From Alternaria dauci (taxonomy: Eukaryota; Ascomycota; Dothideomycetes; Pleosporales; Pleosporaceae), in NCBI RefSeq assembly GCF_042100115.1, contig NC_091274.1:186001-250000 (forward strand): DNA of 64,000 nt, written 5' to 3'. Positions 20,100 to 38,220 of this stretch are shown here, in pieces. Under the pieces are notes generated by a model. The model did no database searches and had not been told where the DNA came from. It saw nothing but the letters and a program-made list of their open reading frames with translations. Both the position numbers and the translations under genes were made by a program. The stretch's first letter is position 1. Each line of letters starts with the position of its first letter.

Positions 20100-21286
<1,187 letters not shown>

Positions 21287-22381: not shown

Positions 22382-24428
22382 ATGGATAGCCTAAGAGCCT
22401 CGATGCCTCCCGGCATGGCAGACGCGGCTGTCAACATTCCAGGTGTTGGCGCCGTCCTCCAGCTTCTCCTCAACAAACTCGGCTTCGATGTCGGAAGCAC
22501 AATGTCCTTGTACCTCTTGTTATTCGGTCTCTTCCAAGGAGCGCTGTTCTTGTACACCCAGGGACGTGGATTAGTATTGTAAGTTCCCACTCGTCCAGCC
22601 CATCCAACAATCACATACTAACTCTCTGTCTAGAGGGCACGGTACTTCAGCTATACGCATAGATGATGACGATGACCTGTACCCCCAATTCATATCCTGG
22701 ATATCAGAGCACCGCATGACAGAAATGAGCCGAGACCTCAAAGCCACCTCCAAAAAGCCCAGAGCACGCAACGACGAAGTAGACAACGACGATGCCTCGG
22801 AAGCAGATTTCGAGGACGTTCTGGACGACTCTGGCATCTTCAACTACGAAAAGTACAAGGGTACTAGTCCGACGTACTACGAACCGAACATGGGCGACGA
22901 CAGCTTCACCCACAACGGTCACTACTTTCAGTTCAGCAAGGCCTGCCAAGAGAACAAGTTCCAAGAGCGCATGGAGTATTTTCTCATCATCCGTTGTATG
23001 GGCCGCAGCACGAAGCCAGTCAAGGACCTCATCAACCACGTCAAAGAGTGGACGGCGCACAAGCCTAACAAGACAACTGAGATTATGCGCGCCGAGATCA
23101 AACATGGTGGCTACTGGTCCGTCCAGTCGAACCGCCCCTCACGACCCATCAGCACAGTCACTCTCGACGAAGCGCAGAAGAACAAGGTCGTTGCAGATAT
23201 CAACGAGTACCTCCATCCAGCTACTGCTCGATGGTACGCTGCACGAGGTATTCCGCACCGCAGGGGATACCTGTTTCATGGCCCGCCCGGTACCGGCAAG
23301 ACATCGTTGAGTTTTGCGATAGCGGGGATCTTTGGGCTGAGCGTATATTGCGCTTCGCTGAGTGAGCGCGACATGAGCGAGTCTGATCTCGCGTCGCTTT
23401 TCGGGCAGCTGCCGAATCGCTGTATCGTTTTACTGGAAGACATCGATAGCGCGGGTATCAGGCGTGACAGATCGTCTGTGATTCCGGAACAAGAGCGCGA
23501 TGCTGGTGTTGACGAGGCGGACAAGTCGAGTGCTCCTGCGCCAACGGAGAAAGCGATTGAGGAGAAGGACGACCAGCACGACAGGAAAGACGAGAAGGAA
23601 ATCGAAGAGAAGCAGAGTCCTAGCATTGCTAGCGAGAAAAAAAGGTCGATCCGGAGACGCATAACGCAGTCCCTCCGCCCCCGCAAATCCTCGCATCAAA
23701 AACCCGATAGCGAAACTACAACCCTCGTCGCCACACCCTCGTCCCTACCCACCTCCGCACCCCCATCGGTCCTCACACCCGCCCCCAGCATATCACAAAT
23801 CCCTCCCCCTACCACCTCTACCTCCACCAAACCCCCACCCCCACCACCCACAGACGAAGAAGGCACCAACACCGCCAGCAAAATCTCACTAGCAGGCCTC
23901 CTCAACATCATCGACGGCGCCGCCTCAAGCGAAGGCCGCGTCCTCATCATGACAACGAATTACCCAGAGAAACTCGATTCAGCACTCATAAGGCCGGGCC
24001 GCGTGGATTTACAGGTCAGATTCACGCTTGCGACGAGGATGCAGGTACAAGAGATATTTCGGCGCATGTATAGCGATGAGGCGGATGGAGAAGATAGTCA
24101 AGGGAAGGTAGGGCGGAGGGGGACGCCTGCTGGTCCTATTGCGGCTGCGAAGTCGAAGTCGACGTCTGGTACTGGTGGTACGACATCGCCGCCACTGTGT
24201 TTCCCAGCGCGACCGAATTTTGTCACATTGCCGCCGGAGGAGCTGGAAAATATGGCAAGGAGGTTTGCGGATGAGTTGCCCGAGGGAGTGTTTTCGCCGG
24301 CGGAGATTCAGGGGTACTTGTTGCAGAAGAAGAGTGATCCGCAGGGGGCATTGGAGGGCGTGGGGGAGTGGAGGGATGTGGTGCTTGAGGCGAAGAGGAG
24401 GGGGAAGAAGGTGGTGGAGTTGAAGTGA
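22382..24428 (+). CDS. BCS1-like AAA ATPase
   Basis: Exons 22382-22578 and 22634-24428, with a 55-nt intron (GTAAGT, TCTAG, phase 2), give 663 residues. A single transmembrane helix lies near residue 50 (MSLYLLLFGLFQGALFLY). A BCS1_N-type region follows, then the AAA module: Walker A GPPGTGKT at residue 282, Walker B CIVLLEDID at residue 329, sensor region LIMTTNYPEKLDSALIRPGRVD. True Bcs1 moves the folded Rieske protein across the mitochondrial inner membrane for complex III; filamentous fungi also carry many Bcs1-like paralogs of unknown job. Between Walker B and the sensor there is an insertion of about 140 residues, charged then Ser/Pro/Thr-rich, which argues for a paralog rather than Bcs1 itself. 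Confidence 0.88.
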
Positions 24429-24971: not shown

Positions 24972-27900
24972 CTAGGGCCGGTATATAAAATCTTTTGGCA
25001 CTGGTGCCTCGTGCTCTCCCTCCCAGCAGCCCGTCTGGATCGCATCCTCCCAAAAAGGGTTATCCTTCAGCCTTCTGCCTTCGACAGACTTGCAATATGC
25101 AATGAACTCTTCTAGAGAAGCATCATGCTTGGTCTGCCTGTAGTTTGACAGCTCCTTGGCGAGCCACTGCCTGTCAGTCCACATGCGCTGCGAAGCGTTG
25201 CCGACCATGACGAACGGTGCCCATATGCGTGGTTCCTTGAAGTCTATAATGTCTTTCCCCTCTTTCCATGATTTGATCACTTGCAACAATTTCTTCTCCT
25301 CTTTCTTACCTGCAAGCCCTGCTACATGATTCCCATGCTGTTGTGACATGTCCAAAAGCTTCACAAACTGCTCTAGTAGGTCAATTGCTGTTTCCGTCGT
25401 CATATTGTACAAGAACTCTGTAGCAAGCTGCCACGCTCCAGAAAAGGAAGGTTGGTCTTGGAAGACCCAGAGGTTGGTGTAGAAGATCCACATGTGTATC
25501 ATTGTGGCAACATCATTGACCTTCCACAATGCGCCCAAATATGCGTGCGCTCCAGCTGCAAGCACAGCGTGGGAAAAGCCCTGTATATCACCGGAATCAG
25601 AGGCATGCCCTACGCCGCTGTGACAAGCGCTGAAGGTTACTAATGCAACATCTCCTCGCACAGCAAGTAAGTCGAGTACTCGAAACTTCTCTTGGAGAAG
25701 TATTTGAGAGTTGAATGGATGATCGGCGTCTTGAAGACCATGCGTACAGATATGGAGGAATTCAGACTCTCGAACGAGGCTGCGGAAGTCTTCCCTACCA
25801 ATATCTTTGGCATTGATAGCCGGTGTGTTGAGTAATCTGCCGATCAATGATGCTTCGATAGCGGCCATTGGTAGCCATCGGTCTCGCGGCCCCCCTGGAC
25901 GCGCTACGACACTTATCGTAGGCCTGATTCGAGCATGCGTTTGTAATCGCCTTAATCGTAATGAGTGAAGTGCTCTCAGGCTCGGGACTTGCGAGACTTC
26001 GCGCTGCATTATAAGGTAGTCACTGTCATATCGGAGCGCACTAACGGGGATCCGAGTCAACATTCCGGATAACACAAAAATTACGTGGCGTCTTTTCGCG
26101 ATGCAGTTTCGGAAAGGTCGAACGAGAACGTTGTCCAGAATTTGACCGAATAACTTGATACCATCCGTGTAGTTGTTCTTGATCGAGTCCACGAACATAA
26201 TGACGGTCTCCTCCAGCGTTGCGAGAGTGGCTAGGGGATGGAATATAGCCATTCTAACTTTCACCTCGTCTAGAGCCATCAAGATGCAGCCTTCCTGTGT
26301 GGCAAAAATGTACAATACGGTCGCATCTTTAGGAATGCATCTGAAGAACGAACCCACTGACTCCAGTGAGAGTTCCGCAGTCTTATTTCGCAGATGGGCA
26401 GTTTGGTGGAACACAGCGAAATATTCTTCTCTCAAAGGATCTAGCGCCTGGAACTCAACTTCTTCCTCGGGGCTTCTATGCTCCTTTTTCATGAGCTCTT
26501 TCCAAAGTTCAGACTTGTATTGAGCCTCGGCTTGTTCAGATGTAAAGTCTTCCGATCCGTCGCTCCAAATATACTGAGGTCGCGCCGCTTCCAGAAACAC
26601 CAAAGCTTCGATGAGATGTTCTTCCAAGTCTTTGTAGTATGTTGTGCTTGCAAAGAGACTGAAGACACTGCAATCAACTGCAGGATTTGAGGTCGGTCCC
26701 AGAGTAGTATATCCTGGCATATCTTGTTTCCACAGCAAAGCCCTTCGTGCAGCGGAGCCTAGCAAGCGGGTGGCGTCGTTCATCGCCAACACAAGTCGAA
26801 AGTCATCGTCGGTCATATGAGCAGCCATGTCAAGGAGAAAAGCTCGGCCTTGTAGGAAGTACAAGTATGCCTCATGAAAGTCTCGTTGACTTTCACACAA
26901 TAGACCAGCGTAGAGGCATCTTTGCCAGGGCCAAAGCTCTGTGTATGACGTTACTGATGTAAAATATCCTGGTGAGGCTTCCTCGATGGTTGACATTAAT
27001 TCTACCGCTCGCTTCCAGAATCCGAGCTTGATACAGCTCAGAAATATTGCCTCTAACGACTTTAGTCTGCACTGTCGTACAACCTTGACCATAGCCTCCA
27101 CAAGATCTTGAGAGTCCACATGAGACGGTGGTATGATCGTGAACATATCGTCGTCACTCACATGCAGAGACATGAGAGCTCTAGCTCTGTCGAAATTTCC
27201 AGCCCGGTGAAGAATGTCGATCTTCAGCAGAATTTGCTCTAGGTTCGTTGATGTTGCGCTTTCGCTCTCATCCAAGAAATTTTGAAGAGCACATTGTGCA
27301 GCCTTGAGATCTCCATCCTGGAGGTTTCTCCGGTAAGCTGTTGTAGCCGCTGCGTGCCGTAGCTTCGTGAGTGCTTCTTCTGTATAATGAGACATAAAGG
27401 GGTTGCGGGATAGGGTCTCAAGCATTTTCTGGGTTGCTTCATCGGGGAACTTTGAAGCTTCATCCTCGGTTGGTCCTAGAAGTACTTCAGCTTCGACGAC
27501 GGCTTTGATGATCCAGTGTATGGTGTGGAGATTAACGGCGGATACGTCAGGAGTCATATCATATGTGAACATGAGGTAAGTGCTGTCCTTGAGGTGACGA
27601 GCCCATATTGCCGCACTACTGTGAAGTCCCAGGGACAGCCATGCTCTGAGCTGTGCGAGCATCGCAAGGTACCAGACTGTCCAAAAGACTTTCATCGCTT
27701 TGATTATTTGTCGACAGACCTCGTAGCCTTCAAGGTTCGTGGCTGATCCTACGATATAACGATTGTAGTGCCCTAACCTCAACGCGAAGAGCGCCAAGCC
27801 CAGAGCGAAAACGTCGTTGCCACAGCCGCGAGCCCAATGGGCTATCCGATGGATCTTGGTGCGATTTTCAAAGGATGCATGCACGTGAACTATTCGATGG

Positions 27901-29144
27901 ATTTCGATCAAGGCCTCAAGCTGCTTATCGTAGCATCTTTGCGCCATTGAGTAACTTTGGCTCAGCAACTCCGAGATTTGTTCCGCGTGAGTCGACCCGC
28001 CCAGCTTCGCTTCTGGCTGCATTCTACGCATACGATGAGTACAGGCCTCTCGAAAGGTACTAGTTGCCAGCCCACGAGTGGATTGCGCCCGGATAAAGTG
28101 CTCGTTCGCTTTAGCATACCAGATGCGGCTGAAGGAGCAATGCTTCTTGATACGTTCCTTCGGATCCAGAGACCCAGTGTCAAATTCAGTCCCTACTAAA
28201 ACGCAGTTCAGTCGTAGTAGAATGTAAGCAGGGCGGAAAAGCAACTTACAGGCTGCATTCTCAGCGAAATGCATAGTACTGTCGCCGCCATAGTCGTCCA
28301 CGCTATCGATAATGACCAGATTTAACAACGAGGGACATGTGAATTCTGGTGATACCATATAATCGCCTCGAATCAAACAGTAGTGGCCAAGACCAACATC
28401 ATCTTCGAGTGCGGAATAGATAGATTTCATGGGTTCAAGATATCGAATTGCATTCGGATCTTCACTTGCTCGAGCAAGGTTGTACTGCGTTCGGAGTAGA
28501 TAAGCGGCAACCAATGGAAGATCGAGTTGAAGCGATTCTTGGATCACTCCGTTGATCTGAGTGAGGAGTTTCGCGAAACGACTGTACTGCAATTTGTGCC
28601 GAGGTAGGTTAAAATCGCAATCAGAGGGTCTCTTGTGCAGTCGACGGACAGCGCGGATCATACGATGTGAGAAGCATATAGCGCAGATGACGTTGTATTC
28701 AAGAACGTCTAGTCTGGACATGTCTTGTTCATACTCTGCGCATGTCTTAACAAAATGCGCGCCATTGTCGTAGTTCTCACGATTCATCCACATGGCTAAT
28801 GCTGGCCCTCGCAGATCGCATGGCTGTAGCAGAGGCGGGAAGTCCCTCCAGGTGCAGAGGAGGGCCGAGTAGGCGTTTCTTCGAAAGGTCCACCGAGTAC
28901 GCTGTGCTGGAGAAAGGCCGTCCTTGTGAAGACTGTCCAGATCCTGGGTCGCGGACACGAAATCGCCCTGTAGAAGAGCAAATATGGCACGCAGCAGAAT
29001 TGTAGACAATTCTTCATCGATAGAAGATGTCGAAACGTCGGCGGCAAGGACTTCCAGTTTTTTGTGTGCTGTCACTAGATCCGTGTGTAAATCGTCGTAG
29101 AAAGGCGTGCCGCCAAAGACTCTGCAAACGTCTCGAAAATCCAT
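24972..29144 (-). CDS. helical-repeat (TPR-like) protein with C-terminal CHAT caspase-like protease domain
   Basis: The frame from the ATG at 29144 has 1,390 codons. A probable 54-nt intron at 28249-28196 (GTAAGT donor, TTTTAG acceptor) has no stop and keeps the frame, so the spliced protein would have 1,372 residues. About 1,000 N-terminal residues are alpha-helical with TPR-like character (for example FHEAYLYFLQGRAFL, FDRARALMSLH). The C-terminal third is a CHAT domain, a clan CD cysteine protease: His1135 in FLHICTHGLQD and Cys1174 in FSACHSGVG (unspliced numbering), followed by AVLAAGAHAYLGALWKVND, the usual CHAT end. No NACHT or NB-ARC motif is seen between repeats and protease. The gene is divergent from the gasdermin-like gene with about 250 bp between the two ATGs. 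In fungi and bacteria CHAT proteases often sit beside the protein they cut, which fits a role as the activator of that neighbour. Confidence 0.85.
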   Translation of the reverse strand: MDFRDVCRVFGGTPFYDDLHTDLVTAHKKLEVLAADVSTSSIDEELSTILLRAIFALLQGDFVSATQDLDSLHKDGLSPAQRTRWTFRRNAYSALLCTWRDFPPLLQPCDLRGPALAMWMNRENYDNGAHFVKTCAEYEQDMSRLDVLEYNVICAICFSHRMIRAVRRLHKRPSDCDFNLPRHKLQYSRFAKLLTQINGVIQESLQLDLPLVAAYLLRTQYNLARASEDPNAIRYLEPMKSIYSALEDDVGLGHYCLIRGDYMVSPEFTCPSLLNLVIIDSVDDYGGDSTMHFAENAACKLLFRPAYILLRLNCVLVGTEFDTGSLDPKERIKKHCSFSRIWYAKANEHFIRAQSTRGLATSTFREACTHRMRRMQPEAKLGGSTHAEQISELLSQSYSMAQRCYDKQLEALIEIHRIVHVHASFENRTKIHRIAHWARGCGNDVFALGLALFALRLGHYNRYIVGSATNLEGYEVCRQIIKAMKVFWTVWYLAMLAQLRAWLSLGLHSSAAIWARHLKDSTYLMFTYDMTPDVSAVNLHTIHWIIKAVVEAEVLLGPTEDEASKFPDEATQKMLETLSRNPFMSHYTEEALTKLRHAAATTAYRRNLQDGDLKAAQCALQNFLDESESATSTNLEQILLKIDILHRAGNFDRARALMSLHVSDDDMFTIIPPSHVDSQDLVEAMVKVVRQCRLKSLEAIFLSCIKLGFWKRAVELMSTIEEASPGYFTSVTSYTELWPWQRCLYAGLLCESQRDFHEAYLYFLQGRAFLLDMAAHMTDDDFRLVLAMNDATRLLGSAARRALLWKQDMPGYTTLGPTSNPAVDCSVFSLFASTTYYKDLEEHLIEALVFLEAARPQYIWSDGSEDFTSEQAEAQYKSELWKELMKKEHRSPEEEVEFQALDPLREEYFAVFHQTAHLRNKTAELSLESVGSFFRCIPKDATVLYIFATQEGCILMALDEVKVRMAIFHPLATLATLEETVIMFVDSIKNNYTDGIKLFGQILDNVLVRPFRNCIAKRRHVIFVLSGMLTRIPVSALRYDSDYLIMQREVSQVPSLRALHSLRLRRLQTHARIRPTISVVARPGGPRDRWLPMAAIEASLIGRLLNTPAINAKDIGREDFRSLVRESEFLHICTHGLQDADHPFNSQILLQEKFRVLDLLAVRGDVALVTFSACHSGVGHASDSGDIQGFSHAVLAAGAHAYLGALWKVNDVATMIHMWIFYTNLWVFQDQPSFSGAWQLATEFLYNMTTETAIDLLEQFVKLLDMSQQHGNHVAGLAGKKEEKKLLQVIKSWKEGKDIIDFKEPRIWAPFVMVGNASQRMWTDRQWLAKELSNYRQTKHDASLEEFIAYCKSVEGRRLKDNPFWEDAIQTGCWEGEHEAPVPKDFIYRP

Positions 29145-29394
29145 ACAAGCCAATTTTAACAGCTGTCAGAGATCGAAGAAAACAGTTGTTTGTAGGAAGG
29201 ATGGGCTGTTTGGAAGATATGGTGATTGGGCTCACAAGGCTGTGCTGCTGCCTATATTCAGCTGAACGCCACAATGACGTGTAGGTCCTGGAGTGGTCGC
29301 ATGCACTGCCGCGCTAGAGCTCAGCTGCTCAGCTCCAGATGACTAGAAAAGCCTCCCAGCTCGCGAACGACAAGTTACAAAATCCATTTCTAAA
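29145..29394. promoter_or_regulatory. shared divergent promoter of the CHAT and gasdermin-like genes
   Basis: Only 250 bp separate the two start codons, so both genes must draw on this segment for transcription initiation. This arrangement suggests co-expression. No clear TATA box or operator-like palindrome stands out by eye. Confidence 0.6.
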
Positions 29395-30491
29395 ATGGCG
29401 CCGATTGAGAAGATCACTTACTTCGCATACAACGAGGGCATTGACCCGACCAGATTGCCTCTTGGCATGCTCGCTTTTGATTATGCAAATGCAAGGCTAT
29501 CGCGGCGATCTTTTCGTCCTAGGGAGAACGAGTGAGTCATCCTTATCGTTGCATCATTTCAGCAGTCTCACGCTATACAGTGAAGCATTGCTCAAGGACT
29601 GCAACCTCGTTGACGAGGACAAACGGTCGTTTTGCAATATGCTATGGACGGAGAAGTCCGACGCCTTGCTCAACATCGACCTGAAGAAAGTGATCGAAGC
29701 GGGGTGGAACTCGTCCAAGTCTGATGCCCGTTTGATCGTCGGCAAGAAGGGATCCAAACTTGAAATCATCGAGTAAGCACTGAAAATCCAATCTCGCAGA
29801 CACACACTAATTGTTGTGAAGCTCGGACAAGTTCTTCGAGGATTACTTGCTCAAGCAAGATGCCGTCCGACAATGGTTCGAGACCAGGCTTTCTGTTGCT
29901 CGCTCTATCACTGCAGCTGTCAACAACCTCATAAAAGCACCAGATATGTGGCTGCTGACAGGGATTTACATCATCGAAGACGGCACCGTGTTCTCTGTGC
30001 GGAAAGAGAGTTCATCTAGTCATGCATCTGCGAAGATGCCAATTCCAGAGCCCACTGGCTTGACTGGATTGGCGGGTCTCAAAGCCGGGGCGACGATTCG
30101 CATCGGTAACGGTATAGAGGCCCAAGCCAGTACTCAGATTGAGGGCGAAAAAGTCTGGGCTGCGCAATGGATCAAGGTATGATGACCGCGATCCTCGATG
30201 TATGAAGCCACTCATTGACAGTCCGGATAGGTAAAAGCGCGGTATGTTGCCATATCCAAGTTGAGAAAAAATACCGAGGCAGTCATGCATACGGTCGTGC
30301 TGCAGGATGTCTGGAGCACTGGCACCACGAGGGGTTGGGACGACGAGCCTCAGGCTGTCGAGCTAGGACTGTCGAACATGCACGAGGACAGTACGGAGGA
30401 AGGAAACACAAGCCTTTTCGACGAGGAATGGTGGAGCAAGTTCGACGACAAGCTTGCAAGTCATCTTGAAGACTTGGACATTGAAGAATGA
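29395..30491 (+). CDS. gasdermin-like pore-forming protein (probable)
   Basis: Four exons, 29395-29531, 29581-29772, 29822-30176 and 30231-30491, with introns of 49, 49 and 54 nt (GTGAGT, GTAAGC and GTATGA donors; CAG, AAG and TAG acceptors), give 314 residues. The reading frame is conserved across all three junctions. The chain has no signal peptide. The central part has beta-strand-like segments, MWLLTGIYIIEDGTVFSV, AGATIRIGNGIEA and KVWAAQWIKVKARYV, in the order seen in fungal gasdermin N-domains. The end is short, acidic and Trp-rich (FDEEWWSKFDD), as expected for an inhibitory C-terminal piece; fungal gasdermins such as HET-Q1 and RCD-1 lack the large mammalian C-domain. Gasdermins oligomerise into membrane pores after proteolysis and kill the cell. 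The call rests on sequence feel plus the CHAT neighbour; a structure-based comparison would settle it. Confidence 0.6.
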
Positions 30492-30641
30492 TATCGCGCT
30501 CCAGACTGGATAACAGCTAATTGTCGAGTTATGGTGTATAGCTCTCGCGAGCCTTGAGCATGGCGCTTTTTTGAACATGTAGCTGAGGTGCTGCGATTTT
30601 TTAGTCTCTTATAATGTTAGACTGGAGCTTACTCCGAAAAC

Positions 30642-30755
30642 TCTCTGATGTATGGTACGTCTCTTGATGAGAGCCTTGTGTGTATAGAACATATGGGTTT
30701 TGGAAGACGTAAGTGGCTCGTCAGTTATGGGTTATCGCCAAACCATGGTTGAGCG
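30642..30755. repeat. direct repeat, copy 1
   Basis: The segment begins CTCTGATGTATGG and ends with TTATCGCCAAACCATGGTT followed by GAGCG. It matches 31790-31915 along its length with scattered substitutions and a short GGTGGTTCT-type expansion in the second copy. It lies about 150 bp after the gasdermin-like stop codon. Confidence 0.75.
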
Positions 30756-30939
30756 TTTACTCCAACAAGAATAAACTCCAAAGATATGTAGCGGCAGGGA
30801 TTCGTTAAGAGTCACCCACATGAGTACTAGTCCGCTGGTAAGTGTAACCTGTCTATGGGATGTGGCGGCATCTAGATGGCGATGGATAGGGGTGAGCGGC
30901 TGAGGTTGTGGCAGCCCGTAGTAGCGAAGTGCACTGACA

Positions 30940-31686
30940 TTGGTGGTCGGCAAAATATCGGTACAACAAACCGCCGAAGCGCCCGCATACAGACAGGCCT
31001 CCACACCAGCATCCCCAAGGCGCCCGCACTCGAGCTCCAAACCCAGTACTCTCAGCTCAACGCCAGCATATCCCGTGCGACCCTGCGGCCTACCGAGACT
31101 CGTCCAATGCGCCAGCTTTGAGCTCGTCTACAGTGGAGACTATTCGGGCAACGCCGTCGCACTCAGCCAATTATGGGCTCTACTCAACAACGCACTCACC
31201 GAATGGCCATCCCCTCGCACACCAGACCTTGTCGCTCTACCCTCAGCGATGATTACAATCACCGACGCTATCCACCGTAGCGAACTGTTTGACGACACAG
31301 ATAGGAAGCCGGAGCCATGAGCGAAGCTTCCCAGGTTTCGGATGGTCTGGTCCGAGGCGTTCCGGAGAACATGCCCGGTACGAGCAAATAGGTGGAGCAC
31401 AACGGCGAAAGACTCTCCAGTGGCGTTGATGGGCTAGATAACTGGTGCGAATGGAGCGCCCACAGAGATGATAGATTTCGACCAGCCACATGAATTCTGG
31501 GAGTTCTGGCAGAAGCGGCTACTCGCGATCGCAAAAGGTACTGGAGTTGATGACTTTGCACTAGACGCGGCAGGCAATACTGTACAGCGTATGCGCAGTA
31601 TCAGTGCGAAGACATCAAAGTACATGGGGGATGAAGGGAAGGGGCTTGAATGCTCGAATACCAACGTCGCTGGGTGTGATGAATGA
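30940..31686 (+). pseudogene. possible relic of an unrecognised gene
   Basis: Two broken frames, about 30940-31320 and 31468-31686, have protein-like composition (for example LSQLWALLNNALTEW, AMITITDAIHRSELFDD and FDQPHEFWEFWQKRLLAIAKG). They do not join through clear splice sites and have no recognisable domain. They sit exactly between the two direct-repeat copies, so the block may be a decayed insertion or duplication. This is a weak call; it could also be random open sequence. Confidence 0.2.
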
Positions 31687-31789
31687 ACAGCTTCGTAGGA
31701 GTCTGATGAAGCTCGACAACGCTGTTGTCAAACGAGAAGAACGGTGATTATGAATGCCGACATGGCGGCCTGTCTCAACGTCTACCTAT

Positions 31790-31915
31790 TCTCTGATGTG
31801 CGGTACTTCTCTTGATGAAAGCCTTTTGCGTATGGGAACATATGGGTTTCGGAAGTTGTGGGTGGCTACTGGTGGTTCTGGTGGTTATGGGTCATCGCCA
31901 AACCATGGTTGAGCG
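31790..31915. repeat. direct repeat, copy 2
   Basis: Same orientation as 30642-30755, about 1.15 kb downstream. The most conserved part is the end, ATCGCCAAACCATGGTTGAG, nearly identical in both copies. The middle carries an extra GGTGGTT-rich stretch. Confidence 0.75.
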
Positions 31916-32666
31916 GATGGCAACCACGGTACGGCTTCGCGATTACGCCCACACAGCAAATGTGTGAGTCAAAGGAGAGGACAACGTCTACCTAAGCAAC
32001 CAGGCATCAGTGTATTACTGGTGAGACGCGCATGGGTAAAGTCGAGGACACCAGTAGTGATACCACCGTAATTTCCATTCTTGTACTCGACTAGATTCTA
32101 ATTATATCAGACTTGTGCATACTTAAAACAGGTAAAACACAGAGCTCTCTTGACACAACTCTAACAACGGTCAGTGGAGATTCAGCGAAATTCATCACTG
32201 ACCACGCTGATAATCCACCGTCCTGACAGATACCGACACCCCGGCGCGATCACGACTGTCCTCGTCCTGGATGCAACTCTCAACGGGCGCACGAAAATCC
32301 AAAATGAAAACTCGTTGTCGAAGGTGCGGAGAATGGGATGTCATGACAAACACCGAGACCTATTATCGCTGAGTGCGTTGGCAAAGAACAAACCGCGCTT
32401 GCGTGCAAAATACGGTCGGTCTACAGGCATCCTCTAACAAGAACCCATCCGCAGCGAATATTGCGCCAGACTCCCCATACCTCACCACGCTATGCCGTTT
32501 GGGGACATTGGTAAAACGGCTGTTTGTACCATGGGACATATATATGGGTCGTTAGTCACGCACCTGTGATATTCAGATCACTACGCATGCGACACTCACC
32601 TTCTCTACCTCATACACAACCAACATTATCACACCAAGTTCACATCAACAACATACACATTCCACT

Positions 32667-33707
32667 ATGCCACAGTCCAACGCGCAATATCGCTGCATTG
32701 GCAAGGGCTTTTGCGGTAGTGTCTGGACTCTTGAAACCCCCCAAAACCAGGACGACAGGCGGATTGCCATCAAGCGCGAAGATGGCGGACCTGGCCGCTC
32801 CGTAACGAACGATTACAACATGCATCTTCGCATTCTCCACAGCGCATCTCAACAGCCACCATCCATGCCGCTGTCAATACCTTCCTGCCACAATCTCATC
32901 CAACCCGACGATACCTGGTGGCTATCAAATCTCCATCACTTCCCGTCCGGCTACACTGCTTGCAGAGCGCTCATCTCAGAACGCATCCCCAAGATCCCTA
33001 GGCCTATCAGCGACAAGATCGTAGACCTCTTCTGCGCCGGCAACGCCCCACTATCCACTTTCGTCAAAGGCAACCCAGACGACAACGCATGCCTGATACG
33101 ACCATATCTAGGACACCGCCGCCGCCACAGACAAGAAGGACAAAGCAATTCGCGCTTCCAGCGCTTCAGTCTGCGCAACGTTCCTCTACACATTGACCAA
33201 ATGGAAGCCTTGGGTCTGGACTCCAAAGCATACGCGGAGACCATGGCAGAGGCCCTCGCACTGATGCACTGGGGCGCGGAGATTGATGCAAACGATGTCG
33301 AATTCGTGCTAGCACCTCCGCGAAGCGAGCATACGCAGTCAATGGTCTTCCAGTCCGACTACATGGGTACACACTGCATGTGGATTCTCGATTTCGACTG
33401 CTGTCGGCCGATGAGCATGGACGTAGAGGGGGTTGAGCAGGCCTGCGCGGCATTTTTCAGGAACGATCCGTTTTATCCCAGGCCGGGGACTGGAGAGACG
33501 GCTGACGAGGAGCTGTGGGCTGTTTTCAAGCGAAGATTTCTTGAATCTAGTTATAGGTTTCTGAGCACAGAAAAGCAGCATTTATGGAACCTTGTAGATA
33601 GGCTGATGGGTAGGATTGAAGAGGAGGCGCGGTCAAGATCAGGTAACAGGGAATCTGGAGCTTCTCAGGGAACTAATCAGTTAGCACGTACTACGTCCCA
33701 TGCGTAG
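32667..33707 (+). CDS. DUF3669 protein (kinase-like fold remnant)
   Basis: An intronless frame of 346 residues. The N-terminal IGKGFCGSVW resembles a kinase glycine-rich loop and IAIKRED the lysine strand. The C-terminal half carries the ascomycete DUF3669 signature: FSLRNVPLHIDQMEALGL, YAETMAEALALMHWGAEID, NDVEFVLAPP, WILDFDCCRPMSMD and AAFFRNDPFYPRPG. WILDFDCCRP corresponds in position to a DFG-like element, but the catalytic HRD motif is not visible, so phosphotransfer is uncertain. DUF3669 proteins are expanded in filamentous ascomycetes and their role is unknown. The last 25 residues are low complexity. Confidence 0.85.
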   Translation: MPQSNAQYRCIGKGFCGSVWTLETPQNQDDRRIAIKREDGGPGRSVTNDYNMHLRILHSASQQPPSMPLSIPSCHNLIQPDDTWWLSNLHHFPSGYTACRALISERIPKIPRPISDKIVDLFCAGNAPLSTFVKGNPDDNACLIRPYLGHRRRHRQEGQSNSRFQRFSLRNVPLHIDQMEALGLDSKAYAETMAEALALMHWGAEIDANDVEFVLAPPRSEHTQSMVFQSDYMGTHCMWILDFDCCRPMSMDVEGVEQACAAFFRNDPFYPRPGTGETADEELWAVFKRRFLESSYRFLSTEKQHLWNLVDRLMGRIEEEARSRSGNRESGASQGTNQLARTTSHA

Positions 33708-34624
33708 TAAGAATATACGAGACAGTTGCTTGGTTCGAGACTACGTCTTGGTATGCTCGCTCCCTATTGTAGACTAAAGCCCGGTTTCGCGAAAACAAAG
33801 GTTCAGCGAGATCGAATTGCGAAAAGCATACAACAGCTGGGACTCGCTAGTGGTCACCTACCTAATTAGCAATCCGCCAGTACATTGCTTGTATATATCT
33901 GAGCGGATAGGAGCCTTGTTGTTACCCGTTCTAATACTGTAAAGACCGCTAAATCATCTGTTTCTAGTATCGCGCAACCCGTAGCAAGTCATTGTAGAAA
34001 GGAGAAGGATCTACTTGCGTTACGTACACTCCAGGCTGAGCAGCAGATCATCCTGAAATAGTGTAGCGCAGATAAATAATCTACATAAGCCATAATCAGG
34101 GGCTGACATCAACCTACTAGCCTTGACAGTAAACCGCTCTACTAATTGTAGCAATACGGCCTGCTCACTAATCGTTGCCTCCACGAAGCAAGAGGCGTGA
34201 TACCACCAGCATAATAGGCGCCATGATCGCCTAATACAGAAAGCAGCCAACCAGAACGTGTGGTCAGCCTCATAAACTCTAGCTCTTCAGATGTAGATTA
34301 CTCGTCGGTCTACACTATGTACACCAAGCCGCCATACCGAGCTCGCCTCTCTACATCCTCAACACTACTACAACGGGATACAGGGGACTTACAGAGACGT
34401 TTGCGATCCAGGCTAGACATTAATAGATTGGATCATGAGGCTCTACAAGAATTCACAGCGCACTTACACAGCAGACAGAAAACACTCATCACGCAACGAG
34501 AACCAAAAATTTAGGCAGACGTCGACCAAGACGGTTATTCCTTTCTATGATCCCTTCATCGACTCTACACCCATCTACTGCTGCCATTACGTCTACTCCG
34601 CTACATCTTTCGTCCTTCTTACTC
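33708..34624. other. gene-free, TpA-rich stretch
   Basis: No gene is supported. The sequence from about 33880 to 34250 is rich in TA dinucleotides and stop codons in all plus frames, with patches that look formerly coding; see the mobile-element entry. Confidence 0.5.
33880..34510 (+). mobile_element. possible RIP-decayed transposon relic
   Basis: Plus-strand patches read like the charged, coiled tail of a pogo/Fot1-type transposase (for example a KEKDLLALRTLQAEQQ-like segment near 34000 and a later RLDHEALQEFTAHLHS segment near 34420), separated by many TAA/TAG codons. No terminal inverted repeat or target-site duplication was found by eye. The call is a guess from texture. Confidence 0.2.
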
Positions 34625-35777
34625 TTAAGCGTAGACATATTTGATTGTGATGCGGGGAACGCACATAGCCTCGTATGGCTGGGGAGCAGTGAAGGGAGCA
34701 ACGTAAACTGGAGATGTAGGGGCAGCAGGAAGAGCGGCGACACTGGAGGATGCAGCAACACTGGGGGAAGCAACACTAGAGAAAGCGGCAGCGCCAGAGT
34801 GAGCAGCAGCGCCAGAGGCAGCAGCAGCGCCAGAGGCAGCAGCAGCGCCAGAGGCAGCAGCAGTGCCAGAGGAAGCAGCAACACTGGAGGAAGCGGCAAC
34901 ACTGGATGACGCAGCAACGCTTGAAGATGCAACAGCGGCCACGCCAACAGAAGAGGCCTCGACAGAAGAAGAAGAAGCGCTGGGCGTAGGTGTGGGAGCG
35001 GCACACAGAGGAGCGGCTTCATTGAACTTGTTAACGGCCCAGGTCGAGGCTTCGTCGGTGTACAGCTCAAAGTAGCTCAAGTGCTTCTCGACGTTATCGC
35101 CGTTGGCGCAGATCGGGTCTCCCTTGGCACAGAAAGAGCGCAGGACGGGTGCGTATCGGTTCAGGCGCGCAAGAGAGTCGGCGCTGCGACCGTTCTTCTG
35201 TAGATCAGAGCCGTCAAGAACGTTGTATGGCTGGTTAGCCACGTGCATGACATCGCCCCAGAGGAGAGCAGCAGCAACTAAGTCACCACGTTAGCGGAGT
35301 TCACGGTTCGAGTGTGGCATGTCAAGAATACTTACTAGCATTACCAGGAGCCGAGGTAGGGTCTAGTCCAGTGGTGATTTGGGAGCATCCACCAGGTCCA
35401 GCAAGGACATCTCCGGTAATCCAGGCACCCTGAGAGAAGCCGTTGAGGATGAGGTGCGTGCAAGGGCACTTCTTGTTGAAAGCGGTGATCTGGGATAGAC
35501 CGTTGCGGACTCCCTCGCCAATTTGTTTGCAGTAGTCGCCGCCCTTCGGGAACACAATCTCAATGTAGTCGCAGGTCTTGCCCTCAGCCCTCAGTTTGGC
35601 GCACGTAGCGTCGGCGAAGGGGAATGTACGCCAGTCATGGTACGGCGCATTGTTACCACGGGCCATGAAGATGACGGCATCGGCGCAGGGAGCGTCGAGC
35701 TTGGGGGCTGGGTCTTGAGCGACGGCGACGGCGGCGATAGCGCTGAGCGCGAGAACGTTGCGGATGATGGAAGACAT
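34625..35777 (-). CDS. cutinase (CE5) with long Ala/Ser-rich C-terminal tail
   Basis: Exons 35777-35336 and 35277-34625, with a 58-nt intron (GTAAGT, CTTAG, phase 1), give 364 residues. A signal peptide covers about residues 1-20 (MSSIIRNVLALSAIAAVAVA). The CE5 triad is visible: Ser115 in NGFSQGAW, Asp201 in KGDPICANGD and His213 in VEKHLSYF, with paired cysteines at PCADAV, ATCAKL, TCDY, CSQI, FCAKGD and ICANGD. Cutinases hydrolyse cutin esters of the plant cuticle; some CE5 members are acetylxylan esterases. Residues about 240-335 are an Ala/Ser tail built from near-perfect repeats, then a short hydrophobic end (PRITIKYVYA). The tail could be a glycosylated linker or wall anchor; there is no binding module. 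Confidence 0.9.
34800..34871 (-). repeat. four-unit 18-bp tandem repeat in cutinase tail
   Basis: Units of 18 bp (plus-strand GCAGCAGCAGCGCCAGAG, with single changes) end at 34817, 34835, 34853 and 34871. They encode SGAAAA-type hexapeptides. Flanking sequence carries a related 15-bp unit encoding SSVAA. Both unit sizes keep the frame. Confidence 0.85.
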
Positions 35778-37216: not shown

Positions 37217-38220
37217 ATGAATCCGGATAACAATGCACCCTTGTGTCGCGACTGGGTCTTTCTCAATAATGCCAACGTACAGTAAGTGCGCTGCAACTGG
37301 TTCTGGACTTTGATCATTGACACTAGATTCTCAGCGTTGCAAAGGACCGGGGCTGGTTCAAAACGTACACGCCCTTCACATCAACTATCGATGGCTCGCC
37401 CTTCGTCGGCTCGGGCAACCACAGTCCCGTACTAGGAATTGGCACTGTCGAGATCCCTACGAAGCGCTCGCCCAATGCTTCAGGTGTATCTTCTCATGGA
37501 TCTCTCCTTCTTCACGATGTCTTGCACGTTCCTAATTTCATCTGCAACATCATCGGACAACCACTTATGTTTACAGACGGTTACTACCCTACACTCCAAC
37601 TTGGTAAAAGGTCTCGCGGGACTATCAAGGATGGCCAGGGCAGGAGTGTTGCCTACTTTGACCCCGGAAGTCCACTGCTGGCGATCAAAGTGCGCTCTTT
37701 GCCAGACGGGCCAAAACTTGGTCCGCACGCTCTTAAGAAGGACAGCCTATATGTGTTAGGCTGTCGATGGGATGACGCTGAGCATCGAAGATGGATAGAG
37801 TTCAAAGCTAGCAACTCACTTTCCACTCCGGCGCAAAACAATGCGCCCTACACGGCCGAGGAAACTGCGTTCCTCAAGAAGAATTATCGCTCCGAGTTCC
37901 ATTTCTTAACCGAGCACGGGCTCAAGATCCACTCAGAGGAAGACCGCGAGGAGGGCCCGGCTATCCTACGTGCCATCATGCGTGCGGAAGATATGTCCGA
38001 GGATGAAGATTCCGAGGGCGAAGAGGGTGATTCTGACGAGTTTGACTTGGAAGGCCATCAGGCAGACTATAACTTTACCGAGCGCCAGCTTGACTGGATC
38101 CAAAAGTACTATCGTAATTCGGAGCAGTTTATGATCTCTTACGGACTCAAGTTTTATGACGACGAGGATCTTGAGGAGGCCAAGGCGATTGTGGAAGCTA
38201 TGATGAATGAAGATGATTGA
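37217..38220 (+). CDS. protein with copia-type Pol beta-barrel domain (probably domesticated)
   Basis: Exons 37217-37281 and 37335-38220, with a 53-nt intron (GTAAGT, CTCAG, phase 2), give 316 residues. The junction restores NVHVAKDRGWF. Residues about 10-110 match the beta-barrel domain found in copia/TNT1 polyproteins next to the protease: CRDWVFLNNAN, GWFKTYTPF, VLGIGTVEIPTKRSP, LLHDVLHVPNFICNIIG. No integrase, reverse transcriptase or LTR lies nearby and the gene has a normal intron, so this is a cellular gene made from, or parallel to, a retroelement piece. The C-terminal 110 residues hold two similar segments (YTAEETAFLKKNYRSEFHFL and FTERQLDWIQKYYRNSEQFM) around a very acidic stretch (EDEDSEGEEGDSDE). 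Function unknown. Confidence 0.7.

Follow-up and report, generated by a model that had tools for sequence, protein, structure and literature searches.

A two-gene cluster of Podospora anserina, in which a gasdermin is paired with a TPR-bearing CHAT protease, is said to have been described by Clave et al. in 2022. The TPR-bearing CHAT protease of P. anserina activates its gasdermin (PMC12881547), and approximately 80% of fungal gasdermin genes cluster with protease genes (PMC10197012, PMC10989679, PMC12881547). CHAT genes reside within 10 kb of 19% of fungal gasdermin genes (PMC10197012), the CHAT domain is present on about 17% of the partner proteases (PMC10989679), and cysteine proteases, including those with CHAT, account for about 17% of the partners (PMC12881547). 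The protease domains controlling fungal gasdermins are often fused directly to TPR, ANK or WD40 repeats, with NLRs representing a small subset (PMC12881547, PMC10197012). Here, we analyzed a 64-kb stretch of contig C3 (186001-250000) from the 34.9-Mb genome (10 contigs) of Alternaria dauci, a plant-associated mold of the Pleosporaceae, hereafter the window, in which a CHAT protease gene and a gene for a 314-residue protein with a predicted gasdermin fold are divergently oriented. We consider it very probable that the pair constitutes a gasdermin/CHAT cell-death cluster of the fungal two-gene type, in which the CHAT protease would cut the gasdermin in response to a trigger and the resulting pore would kill the cell.

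The protease gene (24972..29144, minus strand) is intronless and encodes 1390 residues. Its open reading frame (24972-29165) runs over 1397 codons with the first methionine at codon 8 (base 29144), and the CHAT relatives align from a common start (consensus MDF...) through the end of the protease domain. The gasdermin gene on the plus strand consists of four exons (29395..29531, 29581..29772, 29822..30176, and 30231..30491, the last including the stop codon), separated by introns of 49, 49, and 54 bases that begin with GT and end with AG. Two alternative acceptors of intron 1 likewise leave the frame open, but the 314-residue splice model is identical (100% over the full length) to the deposited A. 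dauci protein ACET3X_003746. A previous sequence-only reading of this DNA had given the same coordinates and gene models and had assumed a shared promoter region, all of which are borne out. The two start codons flank a divergent intergenic (promoter) region of 250 bp (29145..29394). The CHAT gene (24972-29144) may be unannotated or modeled differently in the public record, where the deposited copy of the neighboring gasdermin was found.

The Pfam family PF12770 (CHAT) matches residues 1000-1316 of the protease (25197..26147, minus strand) at 3.8e-36, with a score of 125.4 bits (cut-off 24). Among 21 aligned proteins, comprising the window's own and 20 relatives, the catalytic residues His1135 of the THG motif (25740..25742, minus strand) and Cys1174 of the SACHSG motif (25623..25625, minus strand) are invariant, in agreement with the complete His/Cys motifs noticed earlier. 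The predicted structure, which begins at residue 191, is nearly all helical up to residue ~936, as expected from the TPR-like repeats proposed for this protein, and displays a separase/caspase-type catalytic fold. Its top match in Foldseek is Craspase TPR-CHAT (Csx29). The NCBIfam model for Csx29 reached 19.6 bits with a cut-off of 300, and Peptidase_C50 of Pfam was reached by two of the 21 aligned proteins (best 3e-4). Pfam searches with an E-value limit of 0.01 detected neither of the nucleotide-binding switches NACHT and NB-ARC in any of the 21 proteins, and the sequence-only reading had likewise seen no obvious one. Judged by the predicted structure, the CHAT protein is a protease of the separase/Craspase type that retains its His/Cys pair and is carried on a long TPR-like solenoid.

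The pair was compared with its counterpart from Periconia digitata, a member of a different family of the Pleosporales. The A. dauci and Periconia CHAT proteins share 57% identity: in blocks of 200 residues, 49-56% over residues 1-800 and 66% over residues 801-1000, with 68% in the CHAT domain and 36% at the protein end. The pattern suits a fixed effector joined to a faster-evolving sensor, and is also displayed by many repeat proteins. Within the helical part, residues 721-750 (26895..26984, minus strand) have the top conservation score among fixed 30-residue blocks of the 21 aligned proteins (0.84, compared with 0.82 for the block 1171-1200 containing the catalytic cysteine), and we propose this block as a putative latch or gasdermin-docking site.

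The partner protein was predicted to adopt a gasdermin-like fold spanning residues 7-276 of 314 when its model was compared with RCD-1. With this predicted model as the query, gasdermin entries occupy Foldseek ranks 1-19 and VIA rows 1-21. The gasdermin resemblance suspected from the sequence is thus upheld by the predicted fold, but not its restriction to the middle part of the protein. The fold is followed by the C-terminal tail of residues 277-314 (30375..30488, plus strand), with a helix at 293-313, lying beyond the part matched to RCD-1. The tail, already described as short and acidic, carries a charge of -12.0 at pH 7, compared with -0.3 for residues 1-276, and the final 38 residues are acidic also in all seven full-length gasdermin relatives computed. 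By its charge and position, the tail is a candidate inhibitory segment. In the modeled structure, the 314-residue protein thus comprises a pore domain of the gasdermin fold and this short acidic extension.

The protein family profiles did not recognize this gasdermin. PF04598 (Gasdermin) of Pfam matched none of the 30 gasdermin-family sequences, and the 314-residue protein is therefore not filed under it. A genome search with PF04598 likewise returned no match, which says little because control genomes also gave none over the cut-off. NCBIfam and PADLOC recognized none of the four sequences given out of the 30 (P0002, P0003, P0022, and P0026). Annotation based on Pfam, NCBIfam, and PADLOC will consequently miss this gasdermin subfamily. 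Searches of the PDB sequences with the single sequence and with a profile had PsiB, Eic1, and YedD as the best hits, which we rejected as gasdermin relatives for their E-values of 0.36 or higher; NCBIfam matches to PsiB (12.3 and 14.9 bits against a cut-off of 100) were also rejected.

The distance between the two genes, with start codons 250 bp apart, is far below 10 kb. A genome scan placed CHAT genes at three places (four rows, two equal-length adjacent frames on C8 being counted as one gene) and the gasdermin at a single site of the 34.9-Mb genome, a fourth search row (E 5.24) being taken as chance. Gasdermin paralogues were not found in the genome with the A. dauci protein and two distant relatives as queries. 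The other two CHAT genes (C10:1735247-1736077 and C8:2574408-2575478) are distant from this CHAT family, and no gasdermin relative was found within ~9 kb on each side of them (best E 0.26). By area arithmetic for this genome, with linkage elsewhere not counted, a gasdermin gene would land by accident no more than 5 kb from a CHAT gene about once in 1,000.

Five gasdermin relatives pair with five CHAT relatives by identical sizes of their longest contigs, namely 6,614, 6,949, 8,013, 19,112, and 3,687,698 bases, the last being the Periconia case. On the four short contigs, the two genes would be at most 6.6 to 19 kb apart, as deduced from contig sizes and not from contig sequence. The 20 CHAT relatives thus include at least five further linked pairs, a lower bound, as one (the longest) contig is listed per cluster, and the indirect evidence of equal sizes agrees with the expectation that the pair recurs elsewhere. 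Over the six pairs, including the window's, the pairwise distances of both families agree (Pearson 0.89, reached by two of 720 permutations), although this concordance is weak, as the pairs number just six, sequences are partial, and the species have a history in common. The Periconia gasdermin is 73% identical to that of A. dauci. From these contig sizes, we infer that the linkage of both families holds in other fungal sequences.

Several observations weigh against the assignment as a linked cell-death pair. Among the matches listed, 15 of the 20 CHAT relatives have no gasdermin partner, including those from Hyaloscypha finlandica, Sarocladium, Podospora aff. communis, Plectosphaerella, and Xylographa. 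A CHAT partner is likewise missing from these matches for 24 of the 29 other gasdermin sequences, although the search may not have reached every partner in the genomes concerned. The confidence of the gasdermin model is middling (predicted local distance difference test, pLDDT, 72.5 from 30 sequences), the template modeling scores to gasdermin structures are modest (0.34/0.51), and no sequence-level match to known gasdermins was found in Pfam, NCBIfam, PADLOC, or the PDB sequences. A protein search found no deposited protein identical to the CHAT gene model (best match 58%). The preponderance of unlinked relatives of either family could mean that the two genes are neighbors by accident, or share a promoter alone, without a joint function. 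Given the odds of about 1 in 1,000 by area, the five further linked cases, and the concordant divergence, we regard this as extremely improbable.

The linked cases bear also on the possibility that the gasdermin acts without cleavage in the manner of RCD-1, activated by a different allele, with the neighboring CHAT protease serving another target. RCD-1 proteins are the closest solved structures to the gasdermin and are activated by co-expressing two divergent variants (PMC12881547). However, RCD-1 proteins consist of 244-257 residues, whereas the A. dauci protein has the extra acidic tail, which recurs in the relatives examined, and the CHAT gene is linked in the five further cases. We therefore hold an RCD-1-like mode of action to be improbable. 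A genuine pair might also be decaying or silent in A. dauci, as the patchy distribution and its gasdermin being the sole Alternaria-named protein among the matches listed could suggest. Both frames are intact, though, the catalytic residues are retained, the introns are in frame, and a metagenomic relative is 89% identical across 38% of the length, so that decay appears quite unlikely to us as well.

In the cell-death cluster that we favor, the solenoid would sense a trigger, which might be an invader such as a virus or non-self encountered when hyphae fuse, and binding of the trigger would render the CHAT domain active. As precedent suggests, the CHAT domain would then cut the gasdermin near its C-terminus, perhaps at Arg262 in a disordered loop. 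Cleavage would release the tail, and the pore domain would oligomerize in the plasma membrane, leading to the death of the cell or hyphal compartment.

Arg262 (30330..30332, plus strand) lies in the loop of residues 257-265, which was predicted to be disordered (pLDDT <50), and the predicted cut would fall between R262 and G263. Arg or Lys occurs within one column of 261-262 in 22 of the 25 gasdermin sequences with letters there, A. dauci included; five further sequences stop short of the loop or are blank in these columns. In the Fonsecaea/Fusarium-type rows, the basic residue is shifted by one column toward the N-terminus, and three of the 25 rows (P0022, P0030, and P0031) lack it. The 22 do not represent independent cases because near-duplicates were kept (for example P0023/P0024 and P0010/P0018). 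From residue 245 to the end, three-residue windows outside 261-263 have at most 13 rows with Arg or Lys. Separases require Arg at P1, bound through an invariant Asp (PMC10317155). By analogy, Asp1211 of the LGALWKVND motif (25512..25514, minus strand) is a candidate for the S1-pocket acid binding a P1 Arg. It is invariant in all 21 aligned proteins, is located four residues past the ALW motif's invariant Trp, and, in terms of sequence spacing only, resides at Cys+37 compared with Cys+41 in human separase (Asp2070 and Cys2029), making it a candidate positional equivalent of the separase S1 Asp.

Against R262, similar fractions of Arg or Lys are found elsewhere in the protein (16 of 18 at 104-105 and 24 of 30 at 227-228). 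Craspase orthologues cut at unrelated sites, between A and S, L and D, or M and K, the substrate being recognized in its physical context (PMC11106740), which makes any cut-site guess from residues weak. For these reasons, and in view of the shifted, lacking, and near-duplicate rows, we rejected the R262 motif as proof of the cut site. The CHAT protein may instead activate the gasdermin by cutting in the linker that follows residue 277, or at some other site, with docking-based recognition as in Craspase, whose orthologues cut non-conserved sites (PMC11106740). The linker 278-289 is also predicted to be disordered. HET-Q1 loses about 40 residues on cleavage (PMC10989679), and a similar loss would put the cut near residue 274, whereas a cut between R262 and G263 would free 52 residues. 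The linker is, on the other hand, poorly conserved (0.34 for the block 281-290), and the basic residue at 261-262 is prominent in the C-terminal part. We consider such an alternative site a serious possibility, falling just short of evenly balanced, and give the cut at R262 somewhat less than even odds. More doubtful, in our view, is the complete scheme in which the protease is a separase-like executioner specific for Arg or Lys. It would read the conserved R262 in a loop within the gasdermin domain, ahead of the final strand, and activation would thereby remove this strand along with the tail. The solenoid alone, without a nucleotide switch, would restrain the protease up to the binding of a non-self protein or an invader, and residues 721-750 would act as the latch or docking site.

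As for the surroundings of the two genes, a dispersed repeat is found in two copies directly downstream of the gasdermin gene (30638-30755 and 31784-31981). A genome search with 30500-32000 produced 33 rows on nine of the 10 contigs, one of them the query itself. The copies are probably short mobile-element remnants, and we rejected the idea that they are what is left of another gasdermin or of a duplicated module, as the repeat is dispersed. On the left, the plus strand encodes a BCS1-type AAA ATPase (22575-24428, BCS1_N 1.7e-32) and a delta-aminolevulinic acid dehydratase (20336-21286, 1.7e-118); on the right, it encodes a protein with a DUF3669 domain (32556-33707, E 6e-28) and a piece of a retroelement polyprotein (37327-38220, Pol_BBD 4.9e-7), which brings mobile-element sequence within 8 kb of the module. 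An 18-base tandem repeat at 34734-34928, within the minus-strand open frame 34489-35076, marks a repetitive stretch.

Fungal gasdermin pathways are among the closest parallels between the immunity of molds and that of animals. The stimuli and the control of fungal protease sensors have been named as open questions (PMC12881547). The A. dauci pair offers a compact example without a recognized nucleotide switch, together with a precise prediction for the cut site (R262) and a candidate specificity residue (D1211). The P. anserina TPR-CHAT cluster resembles it in that the gasdermin adjoins a repeat-bearing CHAT protease, which in P. anserina activates it. HET-Q1 of P. anserina is likewise a fungal gasdermin with a short C-terminal tail under protease control. 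However, HET-Q2 belongs to the subtilisin-like serine proteases and has 388 residues (PMC10989679), compared with the 1390-residue cysteine protease of A. dauci, and HET-Q1 and HET-Q2 are idiomorphs (PMC12881547), whereas A. dauci has both genes in one genome. RCD-1 of Neurospora crassa (PDB 8jyy, 8jyx, and 8jyz) is shorter, shares 11% identity with the A. dauci gasdermin, and is activated by another allele. Craspase TPR-CHAT (Csx29) of type III-E CRISPR also combines helical repeats with a separase-like CHAT domain and cuts a partner protein to initiate downstream defense (PMC11106740), a logic that the A. dauci pair would share. Unlike Craspase, the A. dauci protein is fungal, has a longer solenoid and no CRISPR partner, and its presumed substrate is a gasdermin. 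Unlike separase, it is gasdermin-linked and, by context, not a cell-cycle protease. The two-part logic is also common to bacterial gasdermin systems with CHAT or caspase-like proteases (PMC10197012).

The architecture had been called unusual in the sequence-only reading, a view that does not stand, as reviews report CHAT in 17-19% of clusters, repeat-fused proteases, and the Podospora TPR-CHAT activator (PMC12881547, PMC10197012, PMC10989679). Because CHAT clusters, repeat fusions, and the Podospora case have been described, neither the pairing nor the mechanism nor the departure from the NLR plan is new in kind. Among the papers listed for gasdermins, CHAT proteases, and Alternaria, no description of the A. 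dauci pair was found. The pair is a well-supported new example of a kind of system already known in fungi, to which, as far as our searches show, it adds this member, an unannotated gasdermin subfamily, the reading of the sensor as separase/Craspase-type by predicted structure, and the R262/D1211 prediction.
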